The position numbers were made by a program, and so were the translations under genes. From IMG/VR virus record IMGVR_UViG_3300025652_000095, positions 1 through 53,513 of that record: DNA of 53,513 bases; one strand, 5' to 3'. Numbering within the stretch: the first letter of the stretch is position 1; each line of letters starts with the position of its first letter. Shown here in pieces: positions 2,982 to 11,103 of the stretch. The stretch comes from a virus. Under the pieces are notes generated by a model, which saw only the letters and a program-made list of their open reading frames with translations, was not told where the DNA came from and ran no database searches.

Positions 2982-3401
2982 TTGGAAACAGTATTTGTAT
3001 ACGGAACTCTGAAAAGAGCACATGGAAACCATAGACTACTAGCAGGTAGTAAATACATAGGTACAGGACTTACTAAAGATAGGTATATAATGTACGAAGA
3101 TGGTATTCCATACGTGTCTGAATCGTTTTCTTTAACTAATATATCAGGAGAGCTCTACGACGTTAGTAGGGCTACTCTTGATGATTTAGACATGCTAGAA
3201 GGTCATCCTATCTGGTATAAAAGAAAGAAAACTATTATCAAGACAATAGATAAAAACAACAACATAAAACTAATCAATGCATGGTTGTATTTTAATGAAA
3301 TGATACCAGCTCGTGCTAAAATAAATAACATAGGAATATATGGCTACCAAGAAAAATCAAAGTTTATCTCCTTACTACACGAACAAGAAGACCAGGAGTA
3401 A
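2982..3401 (+). CDS. Gamma-glutamylcyclotransferase-fold protein (AIG2/YtfP-like)
   Basis: A 139-residue protein with the GGCT-fold signature: VFVYGTLKRAHGNHRLL at residues 4-20 (the substrate-binding YGTL loop) and LDMLEGHPIWYKR at 70-81, where E73 matches the general acid/base glutamate. The family includes enzymes acting on gamma-glutamyl amines and peptides; many members have unknown substrates, so the reaction here is not assignable. It is unusual between a RecE-like nuclease and a DnaA-like protein. The frame begins directly after the previous stop with TTG, the only start that keeps the first beta strand and YGTL loop, so a non-ATG start is likely. The 3' end overlaps the next small gene by 62 nt. 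Confidence 0.8.
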   Translation: METVFVYGTLKRAHGNHRLLAGSKYIGTGLTKDRYIMYEDGIPYVSESFSLTNISGELYDVSRATLDDLDMLEGHPIWYKRKKTIIKTIDKNNNIKLINAWLYFNEMIPARAKINNIGIYGYQEKSKFISLLHEQEDQE

Positions 3402-6347: not shown

Positions 6348-7710
6348 TCTTTACAGGAACGTTATAATAATATTCACACTGCATACCGTTGGTCTTATGC
6401 CATACAAATGCGTGCGCTCGTTTAATCGTGGACATATATCCACTATCATCATGCCATTGGTCAGTTGGCGACATGCTTCCGAGATGCCTCACAGCAATTC
6501 CGTTAAGTTCTTCAACTTGACCCATTATACTTGTTTTAAGGCTATGTAGATGCCCTCTGTGGACTTCAATGTGCCTTACACTACTCCAAACCTCTCTAAA
6601 CCTTTGAGAGATGACAGACGCAAGATTCTTGTAGTTCTTCACTCTGTTACCATGGTCAAAGATAAGTAAACATTCACCGTACTTATAACCTTTCATTAAG
6701 GGCCTACTATTGTCTACAGTAATATGCTCAGTAGTTTCATACAATGCTTCTAATGCGTCTCCCATGTGCATCATAGACTCTTCGTCATGATTACCTGGAA
6801 TAACAACAACCCGCACAGGAGCAGCAGCAGCTAAAGCGTTTATACACTCTACTAGAAGTTTACGACCAAAGCGATAAGCTTCGTATGTAGAAACTGTATT
6901 AGATTGTGGTGTTCCAGCTGTAGTGGATGTAAAAGGATTAGTTCTGTCTGCGTTCAGGAAGTCATTACCAACTACAAAGACTATTTCTTCGATTCTAAAT
7001 CCTCTTGCTCTTTCAAAAAGGGAACGAAGAGCAGAATGAAGCCTTTCCCTAGCCAGAGCCAAAGAGTAACCATCAGTATCAATACCCAACTTACCAAGAT
7101 GCAAGTCGTATGCCCCAATTTCGAGCAAATAGCCTTCCTCACCCGCCTGTTTAGGCTTAAAATCTGGCTTAATAGAGTATGTACTGAATGCTTCAAATAA
7201 ATCTTGTTTTAAATCTTCTTTTAATTTACTTAAATTATTCCAGATGTTTATCTTCTTAAACTTAGCCTTAGTTCTATACATAGTAACTGTTACAGGCTTT
7301 CTGTCATTATCAAATCCAGTTACCTCGTATGTACCAATATCGAACCAGTCTACCTCCCAAGTTTCAAGGTCTACTTTACAATTATTTATTAAGTCGTCTA
7401 GAGATTTTACTCTGTTACTGTCTTCAACAGATATAGTCAATGAGTTTTTTTTCTCATTAGTAACTACTTTCTCATTCGGTATCTCCGATGATGAGTACGA
7501 CGCTACTTTTACTTCTTCGTCAAATGCTGCTCTTAACATTCTTGCTTTACTACGTACAGCTTCATAAGTGGTATTAAATAAAGCTGCTGTCTCTGCGTAA
7601 TCTTTACGCAACTTCTCAGGATTTTTTAATAGATAATCCTTTAGTTTTTCATTTTTTTCCACGATTTCTTGCTCTGTTTTTAGTTTGACTTTCTTTGACA
7701 AACCCACCAT
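6313..7710 (-). CDS. Calcineurin-like metallophosphoesterase with N-terminal HTH
   Basis: A 465-residue protein with two parts. Residues 1-70 are basic and helical and resemble a helix-turn-helix (YAETAALFNTTYEAVRSKARML). From about 195 on is a calcineurin-type metallophosphoesterase: DLHLG (D202, H204), GND (248-250), PGNHDE (305-310), H353 in FDHGN and GHLH (386-389), the full two-metal site. SbcD/Mre11-like nucleases and phage phosphoesterases share these motifs. The DNA-binding-like N-terminus suggests a nucleic-acid substrate, but that is inference. It sits between PhoH and a small basic protein late in the leftward transcript; its first 62 nt overlap the upstream gene. Confidence 0.85.
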   Translation of the reverse strand: MVGLSKKVKLKTEQEIVEKNEKLKDYLLKNPEKLRKDYAETAALFNTTYEAVRSKARMLRAAFDEEVKVASYSSSEIPNEKVVTNEKKNSLTISVEDSNRVKSLDDLINNCKVDLETWEVDWFDIGTYEVTGFDNDRKPVTVTMYRTKAKFKKINIWNNLSKLKEDLKQDLFEAFSTYSIKPDFKPKQAGEEGYLLEIGAYDLHLGKLGIDTDGYSLALARERLHSALRSLFERARGFRIEEIVFVVGNDFLNADRTNPFTSTTAGTPQSNTVSTYEAYRFGRKLLVECINALAAAAPVRVVVIPGNHDEESMMHMGDALEALYETTEHITVDNSRPLMKGYKYGECLLIFDHGNRVKNYKNLASVISQRFREVWSSVRHIEVHRGHLHSLKTSIMGQVEELNGIAVRHLGSMSPTDQWHDDSGYMSTIKRAHAFVWHKTNGMQCEYYYNVPVKNGKQTKEASEE

Positions 7711-7927
7711 TCTTTTTGTGGGACATATCTTTATTGTCTTTATTACCGTAAGTGCCTGCTTTACGGTTTTTAGCGTTTAATTCCGCTCTATATTTCTTAC
7801 GTTCAGGTGTAGAATGATATTTCTTGTCATAGTCTTGCTTTTTTTTACGTGCTTTAGGGTTTGCAGCGTAGTATTTTGCACTTCTGCTTTTTCCTTTCCC
7901 CTTACCAGCTAAAGTATTTCTAGACAT
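7649..7927 (-). CDS. Small very basic protein, nucleic-acid-binding type
   Basis: A 92-residue, Lys/Arg-rich protein: RSAKYYAANPKARKKKQDYD, then KYHSTPERKKYRAELN and a Gly/Asn-rich tail with DMSHKKNGGF and RARNRGKK. I have seen this type of sequence in marine phage genomes but know no established function. The charge and aromatic spacing suggest nucleic-acid binding, for instance DNA condensation in the capsid or an HNH-like relic (the DxSH could be a remnant); both are guesses. It overlaps the phosphoesterase start by 62 nt and touches the next upstream gene. Confidence 0.65.
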   Translation of the reverse strand: MSRNTLAGKGKGKSRSAKYYAANPKARKKKQDYDKKYHSTPERKKYRAELNAKNRKAGTYGNKDNKDMSHKKNGGFVKESQTKNRARNRGKK

Positions 7928-8494: not shown

Positions 8495-8884
8495 TTACTT
8501 TTTAGAAGACCCCCCAAAAAAGAAGTCTATAATTGTGTTTACTTTACTACTCATTGCTCCAAATACCGTACTTATAAAACCAATTTCATAATCAGATAAT
8601 TCTATTGTGTTCAGTACAAAGTACTTAAACATGGTGTAAGATAGAAAAAAATATGCAACAGTAAAGATAATTGCTAATATTTTCTGTATAGTAGCATCAT
8701 CTTTATATATCTCTCTCGCACTTTCTCGGTCTTTAACTTCGAGGGCAAACATATCTTTTTCATGCTCTTTAACAACTTTTTCAAACTGTTGTTTAAGTTG
8801 GATTCTTTCTTCATCGGTAGTTACTACTTCATCTATAATGTTAGTAGCTTGTCCTACTAGACTTTGTATAATACTCTTTATCAT
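8495..8884 (-). CDS. Holin (phage 3TM-type)
   Basis: A 129-residue membrane protein. A charged cytoplasmic N-terminal helix (residues 20-62, EERIQLKQQFEKVVKEHEKD) leads to hydrophobic segments at about 68-92 (ILAIIFTVAYFFLSYTMF) and 100-124, then a short FFFGGSSKK tail. The arrangement with SAREIYKDD just before the first membrane segment and FFGSS at the end is typical of the phage/GTA holin family. It would permeabilise the inner membrane at lysis and release the M15 endolysin, which has no signal peptide. Located within the lysis cluster, 3 nt from both neighbours. Confidence 0.78.
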   Translation of the reverse strand: MIKSIIQSLVGQATNIIDEVVTTDEERIQLKQQFEKVVKEHEKDMFALEVKDRESAREIYKDDATIQKILAIIFTVAYFFLSYTMFKYFVLNTIELSDYEIGFISTVFGAMSSKVNTIIDFFFGGSSKK

Positions 8885-8887
8885 AAC

Positions 8888-9187
8888 TTAACATTTCCAT
8901 CTACGCCTTGCTTGACGAATTCTTGAATTAGGGTCATTCTTTGTTTTTGCACTACTTCTTTTTAACTGACCCAATGAACGTGCACAATAAGACTTACGTC
9001 TGCCTGCTGCTTTACTACCAGCTTTAACCTTGCCTGTTACAGCCGTTTTAAGCTTACTTCCAGGGTTTTTCTTACGGTACGCTGCAACTCCTTTTTTAGT
9101 CATCCCAGCACCCTTTTTTGTAGGTCTGTAATTTGCACTCTTGCCTTTGGTAGTTTTCCTAATTGGATTTTCCTTTTTTCTTGGCAT
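8888..9187 (-). CDS. Small basic protein with RRRWKC tail (DUF6321-like)
   Basis: A 99-residue, strongly basic protein. The signature KKGAGMTKKGVAAYRKKNPG followed by SKLKTAVTG, RRKSYCARS and a C-terminal RQARRRWKC recurs in marine phage genomes, and I associate it with DUF6321; the function is unknown. Two cysteines (in YCARS and the last residue) could form a disulfide or a metal site. I chose the ATG at 9187 (MPRKKENP) in an A-rich context rather than the upstream ATG at 9211, which would deepen the overlap with the preceding gene from 29 to 53 nt. Likely nucleic-acid binding by charge alone. Confidence 0.65.
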   Translation of the reverse strand: MPRKKENPIRKTTKGKSANYRPTKKGAGMTKKGVAAYRKKNPGSKLKTAVTGKVKAGSKAAGRRKSYCARSLGQLKRSSAKTKNDPNSRIRQARRRWKC

Positions 9188-9440
9188 TTGTCTTTCGTTT
9201 ACGAAGCGCACTAGTACGCTTTCCCATTCCTACTCGTTTTTTTTCCGCCACAACTGCAGACTTTCTTTTTCCCACACCCTTCCAGGTCACAGGTGTTTTC
9301 TTGTTTACTTTTTTTGTTGGTCTGCATTTTTTGACACCTTTATTTTTAGACGAACCACATGGGTTGCCTTTTTCATCTTTCCATTTTTCTTTAAACCAGC
9401 GCTTTAAATTAGCTCCAGCGTTTGTTTTTCGCACAGCCAT
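9159..9440 (-). CDS. Small basic protein with Cys pair (DUF5872-like)
   Basis: A 93-residue, Lys-rich protein. The N-terminal LKRWFKEKWKDEKGNPCGSS followed by KKCRP and KKTPVTW is the pattern I associate with DUF5872, a small basic family of aquatic phages and giant viruses with no known function. The C-terminal half is almost entirely Lys/Arg/Ala/Gly, like a histone tail. The Cys pair (GNPCG, KKCRP) may bind a metal. It overlaps the gene on either side by a few to tens of bases, showing tight co-expression with the lysis genes. Confidence 0.65.
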   Translation of the reverse strand: MAVRKTNAGANLKRWFKEKWKDEKGNPCGSSKNKGVKKCRPTKKVNKKTPVTWKGVGKRKSAVVAEKKRVGMGKRTSALRKRKTNAKKKGKSN

Positions 9441-9628
9441 CAGTCTGATTGTCTAACAAACCTATCCATATTGCAACAACAAGAAGAAACCATGCCACCT
9501 TTGCTGTACTTCTTTTTTTTAGAACCTCCAGATTTTTTTTTGCGGCACTTAGCAATAGCTCCCGATGCGTATGCACTAGGAAATACTTTGTAACTAGCTT
9601 TTACTTTTCTATAACAAGCGTCTTTCAT
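9440..9628 (-). CDS. Small Cys/Lys-rich protein
   Basis: A 62-residue protein with a helical start (ACYRKVKASYKVFPSAYASGAIAKC), a Lys/Ser/Gly linker and a CCC triplet (SSCCCNM) near the end. Five cysteines in 62 residues suggest metal binding or oxidation-dependent assembly. The segment from YKVFPSAYASGA to AKCRKKK resembles other small basic phage proteins that follow lysis genes. Function unknown. Its start overlaps the endolysin stop by 4 nt. Confidence 0.55.
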   Translation of the reverse strand: MKDACYRKVKASYKVFPSAYASGAIAKCRKKKSGGSKKKKYSKGGMVSSCCCNMDRFVRQSD

Positions 9629-10080
9629 ATTTCAGCATATTTATATTTAGTGTCTCCGTCTTCATCTTTATATGCTTCCAAAACTTGCTTTCTATTTTTT
9701 TCTTCGTTAAACGATATATGAATCCATGAATAGTCAAACTCGTTTATCATTTGGTCAAAATCTATATCACTAGATAAAATCCAATCGTATATTTTTTTAT
9801 TATTCATTTCTCCTTTTTCCCAGAACTGCACGTCAATCGCCTGCCCTCGGCAGTGTTGTGACTTAACGCTTCCCCCAATCGCTCGATTAAGATTTGGACT
9901 CCTATAACCAGAGCTAACACGAATAGGACCAATAGAGCTACGAAGAGGCTGAACCACCCCTGAAATAAGCTGCTGTATATTTTGTAAATGTTTTTTATTC
10001 GGCTCATTTTTTATTCCTAATCTTTTTGCTGTGTTGCTATGTGTAATTTCAGCAAGTGTAAAGTTTTTGCTTAATTTCAT
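9625..10080 (-). CDS. Endolysin, peptidase M15 family
   Basis: A 151-residue zinc peptidase of the M15A type (D-Ala-D-Ala carboxypeptidase/L-Ala-D-Glu endopeptidase-like). The core is VSSGYRSPNLNRAIGG (residues 55-70), SQHCRGQAIDV with zinc ligands H76 and D83, and WIHISF with H121. It would cut peptidoglycan peptide stems at lysis. There is no signal peptide or membrane segment, so export would depend on the holin encoded four genes downstream. The length is that of single-domain phage M15 lysins; no cell-wall binding domain is present, as is usual for phages of Gram-negative hosts. Confidence 0.9.
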   Translation of the reverse strand: MKLSKNFTLAEITHSNTAKRLGIKNEPNKKHLQNIQQLISGVVQPLRSSIGPIRVSSGYRSPNLNRAIGGSVKSQHCRGQAIDVQFWEKGEMNNKKIYDWILSSDIDFDQMINEFDYSWIHISFNEEKNRKQVLEAYKDEDGDTKYKYAEI

Positions 10081-10418
10081 TATTCAGTTTTTGCTTGAGT
10101 TATTTCTAATTCTTTTACTACAGTTCTAAGGTAGTCTACTTCTTTTTGAAGATACAAAATTCTAAGGTCTTGTTTAGCGTCATCAGGTAATGCACCCATC
10201 TCGCCACGAGGCCATTTAGTTCTAAACTCGTCATTAAGAACTACGTGTTCTTGCATACGATATACATCTAACTGCAGTTGAGCTATTGATGCTGTAAGAG
10301 TGAACCATATACCAGCTAAAGACACTATACCAACAACAATGCCGACAAGTGACTTTATATCTAAATTAATTTTAGAAGTTTCTGTAATGTTTAGTTTATC
10401 TTCTTCCACAGTATACAT
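10080..10418 (-). CDS. Membrane-anchored coiled-coil protein (paralogue A)
   Basis: A 112-residue protein with one membrane segment at about 22-45 (IKSLVGIVVGIVSLAGIWFTL) and a long helical C-terminus (residues 47-110, including LQKEVDYLRTVVKELEITQ). The region NLDIKSLVGIVVGI-GIWFTLTASIA is clearly related to the same region of the 92-residue protein at 10825-11103, so the two are duplicates. The topology (N-in, one helix, extended coiled coil) and the lysis neighbourhood would suit an inner-membrane spanin or a holin regulator; no function is proven. Its last bases meet the endolysin start. Confidence 0.6.
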   Translation of the reverse strand: MYTVEEDKLNITETSKINLDIKSLVGIVVGIVSLAGIWFTLTASIAQLQLDVYRMQEHVVLNDEFRTKWPRGEMGALPDDAKQDLRILYLQKEVDYLRTVVKELEITQAKTE

Positions 10419-10475: not shown

Positions 10476-10832
10476 TTATAAATCGTTAATAGCTGATTGT
10501 ACTTGTTCTTTTGTAGCAGTTACCTTTAACATAATGTTAGGAGTAAACCTATATTGTTCTTCTCCATTTTTAAATACTATAATTGTAGGAGCTGCAGCAA
10601 CTTTATATTTTTGTAATAAACTTTTATCTCTTCTTATCGTATGACGGTAAGTTCTGCAGTTAGTTAGTTCGTGCATAAAAAGTATTTCATTACCTCTATT
10701 CCATCCTGCCCAAAACTCTACTACTGCTACACCTCTCCTTATCTCCCAATCAAAATTATCAGCACTTATTTGGTTTTGTCCAAACGCGCTAACAGGAAGT
10801 AAGAAAAGCATATATAGTAAAAACTTACTCAT
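10476..10832 (-). CDS. Secreted thioredoxin-fold protein lacking CxxC
   Basis: A 118-residue protein with a clean signal peptide (MSKFLLYMLFLLPVSAFGQ) followed by a thioredoxin fold. VAVVEFWAGW (36-44) is the beta strand leading to the active site, but the usual WCGPC is WNRGN (44-48), so both redox cysteines are asparagines. The cis-proline loop is intact (AAPTIIVFKNG, P82), followed by RFTPNIML. It cannot do thiol-disulfide exchange; a binding or chaperone role in the periplasm is more likely. It sits between the two paralogous membrane coiled-coil proteins, overlapping the upstream one by 8 nt. The only cysteine is C59. Confidence 0.72.
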   Translation of the reverse strand: MSKFLLYMLFLLPVSAFGQNQISADNFDWEIRRGVAVVEFWAGWNRGNEILFMHELTNCRTYRHTIRRDKSLLQKYKVAAAPTIIVFKNGEEQYRFTPNIMLKVTATKEQVQSAINDL

Positions 10833-11103
10833 AGAGCTTTTGTTTAATCAGCTTTATATCATCTTTGATTTCAGTAACATCTTCTTGAGTAGACATAATA
10901 GTTTGCCTAATGAGTCTGTCTTTCATATCAAACTCCATTCTTGTAATTACGGGGTCTGTAGGTTTAGGTAGTTCTTTTGCTTCTGCAATATCTGCTTGCA
11001 AAGAAAACCACATACCAACTAAGGTAAATATAAAAACAGCGATTGCTGCTAAAGACTTAATACTTACATTAAAGTTTGTATTCTCATTTAAACTCTGAGC
11101 CAT
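10825..11103 (-). CDS. Membrane-anchored coiled-coil protein (paralogue B)
   Basis: A 92-residue protein with one membrane segment (about 15-36, IKSLAAIAVFIFTLVGMWFSL) and a helical, charged C-terminus (TQEDVTEIKDDIKLIKQKLY). The stretch NVSIKSLAAIAVFIF-GMWFSLQADIA aligns with the paralogue at 10080. It is the first gene of the lysis cluster and is preceded by a candidate promoter at 11150. Role unknown; a spanin-like or membrane-organising function is possible. The overlap with the thioredoxin-like gene suggests the three proteins act together. Confidence 0.6.
   Translation of the reverse strand: MAQSLNENTNFNVSIKSLAAIAVFIFTLVGMWFSLQADIAEAKELPKPTDPVITRMEFDMKDRLIRQTIMSTQEDVTEIKDDIKLIKQKLYE

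Follow-up and report, generated by a model that had tools for sequence, protein, structure and literature searches.

In uncultured phages, a new family of redox-dead proteins with the thioredoxin fold is tied to a single membrane protein. In this whole clade of an enzyme fold the catalytic cysteines have given way to the same two asparagines, which are retained in every member seen. The first member was found in a viral sequence of 53,513 nt (IMG/VR record IMGVR_UViG_3300025652_000095), the whole stretch of DNA analysed and hereafter the window. The observation is more general than the view from this single sequence, as it is the signature of a large group of uncultured bacterial viruses. The retained asparagine pair together with the locked membrane partner speaks strongly for a specific binding function, and the two proteins may assist these viruses in opening or altering the cell envelope. 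In searches of an open-access library, both the family and the module appear undescribed.

A predicted exported thioredoxin fold with asparagines at the active site

The ORF at 10476..10832 encodes a WNxxN thioredoxin-fold protein of 118 aa, assigned from a Pfam match, a structural model and the alignment of homologues; this ORF, the features within it, the two single-TM genes, the endolysin gene and the holin-like gene of the window are all on the minus strand. Inspection and a crude scan predicted a signal peptide at residues 1-18 (10779..10832), with the sequence MSKFLLYMLFLLPVSAFG, which ends in SAFG, and with cleavage before Q19; a thioredoxin domain follows. The match to Pfam Thioredoxin (E-value 1.6e-5) scored 25.3 bits, just above the cut-off of 23.5, and an AlphaFold2 model computed from an alignment of 93 sequences reached a mean pLDDT of 90 and a pTM of 0.80. 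In addition, a structural match to the Staphylococcus aureus thioredoxin 2o7k was obtained with a Z of 15.3 and an rmsd of 1.5 over 95 residues (VIA-align 2).

The position of the CxxC motif is taken in this protein by the sequence EFWAGWNRGNE, with W44-N45-R46-G47-N48 (10689..10703) instead of WCGPC. The cis-Pro loop, read from the sequence as APT, is intact and contains P82-T83 (10584..10589), the cis state being presumed. The sole cysteine of the protein is C59 (10656..10658), a Cys in 132 of 141 relatives. The original prediction had described a secreted thioredoxin fold in which asparagine replaces both redox cysteines beside an intact cis-Pro loop. Secretion is borne out at the level of prediction and the fold by the Pfam match, the model and the structural match, while the replacement and the intact loop are confirmed, which supports the description of the protein as redox-dead.

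Conservation of the NxxN signature

Relatives were sought in virus contigs with the protein, with profiles and with the neighbouring transmembrane (TM) gene, and 179 loci were obtained, including the window's own. Reduction to 147 non-redundant loci left 141 distinct thioredoxin-like proteins, the window's included, with identities down to 28%, and these relatives come from uncultured viral contigs. The sample consists of at most the best 80 loci per query, and the first TM profile matched at least 596 places, so it is biased toward nearer relatives. Among the matches listed, residues 45 and 48 were Asn in all 141 distinct proteins, and the only invariant columns within residues 20-118 were N45, N48, P82 and T83. 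The probability that both cysteine-aligned columns would be among 4 invariant columns of 99 by chance is 0.0012. Position 44 was Trp in 110 proteins and Phe in 31, and thus the expected conservation of WNxxN holds in full for the asparagines and as an aromatic choice for the residue before them.

Because the profiles used in these searches contained EFWAG patterns, and could thereby have favoured the motif, a blind test was carried out on loci fetched by the TM gene only. Three TM-gene queries gave 159 loci, from which 10 duplicates, 3 loci without downstream room and 2 in which the TM gene was not recovered were removed. [WF]NxxN was present directly downstream of the TM gene in 144 of 144 loci among the matches listed (113 with W and 31 with F). 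CxxC homologues, for which the original prediction left no place, were also looked for, and their number was zero both in the 141 relatives and in the 144 TM-selected loci. The idea that an ordinary thioredoxin carries a sequencing or assembly artefact in its active site, or that the gene is decaying, is ruled out because NxxN recurs in 141 distinct proteins drawn from many samples and again in every TM-selected locus; we found no evidence in support of this idea, which we regard as scarcely credible.

Relation to cellular and phage thioredoxins

A search of bacterial and archaeal genomes was evaluated for its best 80 relatives, and the thioredoxin ORF was recovered in 79 of them. All 79 contain CxxC; one row aligned N at the first cysteine column though the sequence itself holds CxxC, and this was taken as a misalignment. 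None of the 80 loci yielded a TM partner. In a phylogenetic tree the 141 phage proteins formed one clade (support 0.80) with no bacterial member among the 79. Furthermore, the distance between N48 and the cis-Pro was 34 residues in 125 of the 141 phage proteins vs 41 residues in 45 and 40 residues in 21 of the 79 bacterial thioredoxins, which means that the phage stretch after the active site is shortened by about 7 residues. The separate clade and the shorter stretch point to a single origin of the phage NxxN family, as judged from these alignments.

Two matches from a phage collection were inspected and rejected as relatives, MT837311 (WCGPC) and the ssRNA phage SRR5466337_2 (WCVPC), both of which are ordinary catalytic thioredoxins; LR756504 and OR845002 were left out. 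In SRR5466337_2 (NC_073930.1, L260:154-564) the thioredoxin is the first ORF and has no signal peptide, representing either an unusual levivirus cargo or a chimeric assembly. A set of 50,697 phage records contained no match to the TM protein, to the beta-barrel-like protein described below or to the thioredoxin of the FN type.

The TM gene is the constant partner

The TM partner (10825..11103, 92 aa) is encoded immediately upstream, and its stop overlaps the start of the thioredoxin-like gene by 8 nt. A short charged N-terminus precedes its single, N-terminal TM helix, and a linker containing proline leads to a predicted helix that bears the conserved TRMEFDMKD motif. Both genes occurred together in 139 of the 147 non-redundant loci among the matches listed, separated by less than 150 bp in 132 and by an intervening gene in 7. 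The other 8 loci comprise 7 with one gene, all at contig edges, and 1 in which neither was called. The most divergent TM genes among the matches listed likewise have a thioredoxin-like neighbour. The intervening gene encodes a YfiM/DUF2279-like exported protein (L110:4141-4443, L115, L140, L146, L148, L164 and L165). Separately, in the most divergent TM partners (L052:5302-5976 and L278-L280) the TM helix is preceded by an additional N-terminal domain and a linker rich in proline, as seen in L052, of which L278-L280 are relatives.

Charge distribution around the TM helix, with K+R higher on the N side than on the C side in 32 of 43 proteins and equal in 10, predicts an N-in/C-out orientation, so the TRMEFDMKD motif would share its compartment with the thioredoxin fold. 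A model of both proteins fused gave the TM partner a C-terminal helix; its pTM was 0.50, so no docking is shown by it. Family and profile searches gave no spanin-family match for the TM protein. A search with the TM profile gave no match in 395 genomes from the same class as G001, a set with no positive control among its genomes; this profile did recover the TM gene from 7 virus records.

An M15 peptidase gene was located within 1.5 kb in only 60 of the 125 loci with enough downstream sequence, and 62 of the 125 were without M15, whereas the TM gene was present in every testable locus. The constant partner is thus the upstream TM gene, and the lysis cassette was rejected for this place. The original prediction had placed the protein inside a lysis cluster, which stands for the window, where an M15 endolysin is near, and does not extend to the relatives lacking one at that distance. 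Similarly, of the two flanking membrane proteins it had named, the upstream one is constant and the downstream one, at 10080..10418, is dispensable, being absent in locus L033.

Genomic neighbourhood

Downstream of the thioredoxin-like gene, the window encodes a second single-TM protein (10080..10418, phrog_20984), related to the TM partner and not always present, and, beyond this one gene, the M15 peptidase endolysin (9625..10080, phrog_894). A holin-like protein (phrog_3427) is encoded at 8495..8884. Short, very Lys/Arg-rich proteins are encoded between the endolysin, holin and exonuclease genes (7649-7927, 8888-9211 and 9159-9440), and a related cluster was observed in 76 of 143 loci. The recombination genes of the window include a gamma-glutamyl cyclotransferase-like gene (2982-3401, phrog_2520, E-value 4.5e-22).

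The surrounding operon was analysed in the 89 loci that had 3 kb or more of flanking sequence in each direction. A common gene order in relatives was beta-barrel, exported protein, small TM protein, TM partner, thioredoxin-like protein, endolysin and holin. Holin genes were present in 46 of the 89 loci and M15 genes in 40; at least one of M15, holin and phrog_1501 occurred in 62, and 27 had none of the three. A beta-barrel-like exported protein was present in 78. This protein, of 350 residues, ends in an aromatic, beta-strand-like C-terminal signal and is read, from these sequence features, as a putative outer-membrane beta-barrel; neither it nor its exported neighbours matched any family in Pfam or NCBIfam. 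The window lineage keeps the TM partner, thioredoxin-like protein, endolysin and holin. No beta-barrel match was found near the pair in this lineage (best E-value 0.36), and consequently no outer-membrane anchor is known in the window and its close relatives. Exported operon proteins of relatives (L036:4383-5120 and L131:889-1434) have C-terminal stretches such as LNGQxIRKPxxIYIxNGK and DILGREVxPxxGFYIxSDG, which resemble the C-terminal sorting domains of type IX secretion (T9SS), and they had no Pfam or NCBIfam match; a phage-encoded T9SS cargo would be notable.

The proximity of lysis genes raises the question of lysis timing, a function included in the lysis-control role suggested by the original prediction. 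According to this explanation, the TM protein would be holin-like or holin-regulating through a periplasmic domain, and the thioredoxin fold would be a secreted antiholin binding that domain. Phage T4 combines the holin T, which has one TM helix and a periplasmic domain, with the secreted antiholin RI. The pair studied here, in which the small single-TM protein is predicted to have a periplasmic domain and its partner is secreted, resembles them in this arrangement, with no homology shown. An endolysin and a holin lie downstream in many loci, and the second, related TM protein adjoins the pair in the window. Against this, the window already contains a separate holin-like gene, which also sets it apart from the T4 case, and in many loci both holin and M15 are missing from the vicinity. 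Moreover, antiholins usually diverge fast, and the family studied here maintains four invariant residues. Taking both sides together, we consider a function in lysis timing unlikely.

The distribution of exported proteins is relevant to the other functions considered. In three contigs of 89-95 kb, whose major capsid proteins are all related to that of the window, nearly all predicted signal-peptide proteins mapped to this operon: G002 had 4 of 4 there (including a 61-residue lipoprotein), G004 4 of 4 and G006 3 of 5, its two outside ORFs having 43 and 45 residues. In the window, no coding-strand protein other than the thioredoxin-like one had a predicted signal peptide; a single further ORF, antisense to known genes, was picked up by the crude scan. 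The clustering, and the surface-directed appearance of several operon proteins, would fit superinfection exclusion or surface remodelling, in which the exported operon alters the envelope of the infected cell and blocks injection by other phages. The window, however, keeps the pair only, with no further predicted signal-peptide protein on its coding strands, and the lysis-gene neighbours in many loci suggest late expression, so that we hold this function to be improbable.

The same distribution bears on the chaperone role suggested originally. A redox-dead periplasmic chaperone, or a decoy of host Dsb/TlpA-type proteins, could hold unfolded substrates in the cis-Pro groove, and the intact cis-Pro loop and the absence of catalytic cysteines agree with this. 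A chaperone for phage cargo is nevertheless weakened because no other predicted exported protein was found on the coding strands of the window, and the fixed pairing with one TM gene would be left unexplained. This role seems to us the least probable of the functions considered.

The host of these phages is probably a member of the Bacteroidota, as inferred from the style of the signal peptides and from the major capsid protein of the window, which matches crAss-like phage capsids. The phages are probably marine, judging from our reading of the contig origin and of the relatives.

Proposed function of the pair

Our preferred, still tentative reading, to which we give somewhat less than an even chance, is that the thioredoxin-like protein is a non-redox protein-binding adaptor paired with the TM protein in a late envelope role, most likely outer-membrane disruption or bridging, the task of spanins. 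The exported fold would have given up redox chemistry to act as an adaptor: there is no dithiol, yet the asparagine pair and the cis-Pro residues are the most constrained positions, and they are therefore read as a binding surface. Its inseparable neighbour, with a conserved motif that presumably lies in the periplasm, is the leading candidate for the ligand. The TM protein would be held in the inner membrane and expose its C-terminal helix to the periplasm, and the thioredoxin fold, itself probably periplasmic, would dock on it through the cis-Pro groove and the invariant Asn pair and so be tethered. The pair would act on the envelope in the last phase of infection, presumably through late expression and as part of lysis, and would disrupt the outer membrane or bridge the envelope in phages that have no recognisable spanin.

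A six-frame scan of the window revealed no credible lipobox gene of an o- or u-spanin, the single candidate being antisense to a 4174-aa gene; neither an o-spanin lipoprotein nor a u-spanin, a lipoprotein with a C-terminal TM helix, was found there. The window is a possibly incomplete IMG/VR record, which counts against reading it as spanin-less. Near the pair, lipobox ORFs were detected on the coding strand in 26 of 143 loci, mostly at the N-terminus of the beta-barrel or thioredoxin-like protein, and on the opposite strand in 8 of 143. Two loci of one sub-lineage (L046 and L262:6778-6963) encode a 61-residue lipoprotein between the beta-barrel and the exported protein, possibly a true o-spanin there.

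Kongari et al. 2018 (PMC6139136) describe some phages as spanin-less, including Croceibacter phages, and suggest that an outer-membrane protein could serve as o-spanin. This suggestion, together with the lack of a credible lipobox gene in the window, places the envelope-breaching role in the lead. On the other hand, Bacteroidetes phages use u-spanins only according to another source (PMC12596118), which would count against a spanin-less group if the hosts are Bacteroidota. Our confidence is restrained because half of the loci with downstream sequence have no M15 nearby and the window has no beta-barrel. The pair provides concrete candidate genes for how spanin-less phages breach the outer membrane. 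A wider version, in our opinion rather doubtful, is that the pair forms the core of an undescribed envelope-spanning lysis apparatus, with a helical protein as inner-membrane anchor, the redox-dead thioredoxin fold as linker and, for the majority of relatives, a phage-encoded outer-membrane beta-barrel that replaces the o-spanin lipoprotein; if true, it would explain how the outer membrane is opened in at least one large spanin-less phage group.

Comparison with known systems

The pair resembles the two-component spanins Rz/Rz1 (PMC6139136) in that its single-TM protein is oriented N-in and has a helical domain in the periplasm (both predicted here), the genes overlap, one partner is secreted, and endolysin and holin adjoin in many loci. 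It differs in that its secreted component is a folded thioredoxin domain that lacks a lipobox, with no sequence match to spanin families, and the pair is not filed as a spanin. Regarding thioredoxin (PF00085; S. aureus TrxA, 2o7k), the fold and the cis-Pro loop are alike; the phage family has NxxN for CxxC, the shorter stretch, export and the pairing with the TM gene. CxxC, a defining feature of thioredoxin, was looked for and is not present, so the phage protein is not a thioredoxin in function. Among cellular proteins, redox-dead thioredoxin folds are known in PDI b domains, ERp44, TMX2 and YbbN, and TMX2 appeared among the Foldseek matches of the thioredoxin-like protein. These are not proteins of phage lysis regions and, to our knowledge, do not carry the NxxN signature; what they share with the phage protein is a thioredoxin fold without a working dithiol.
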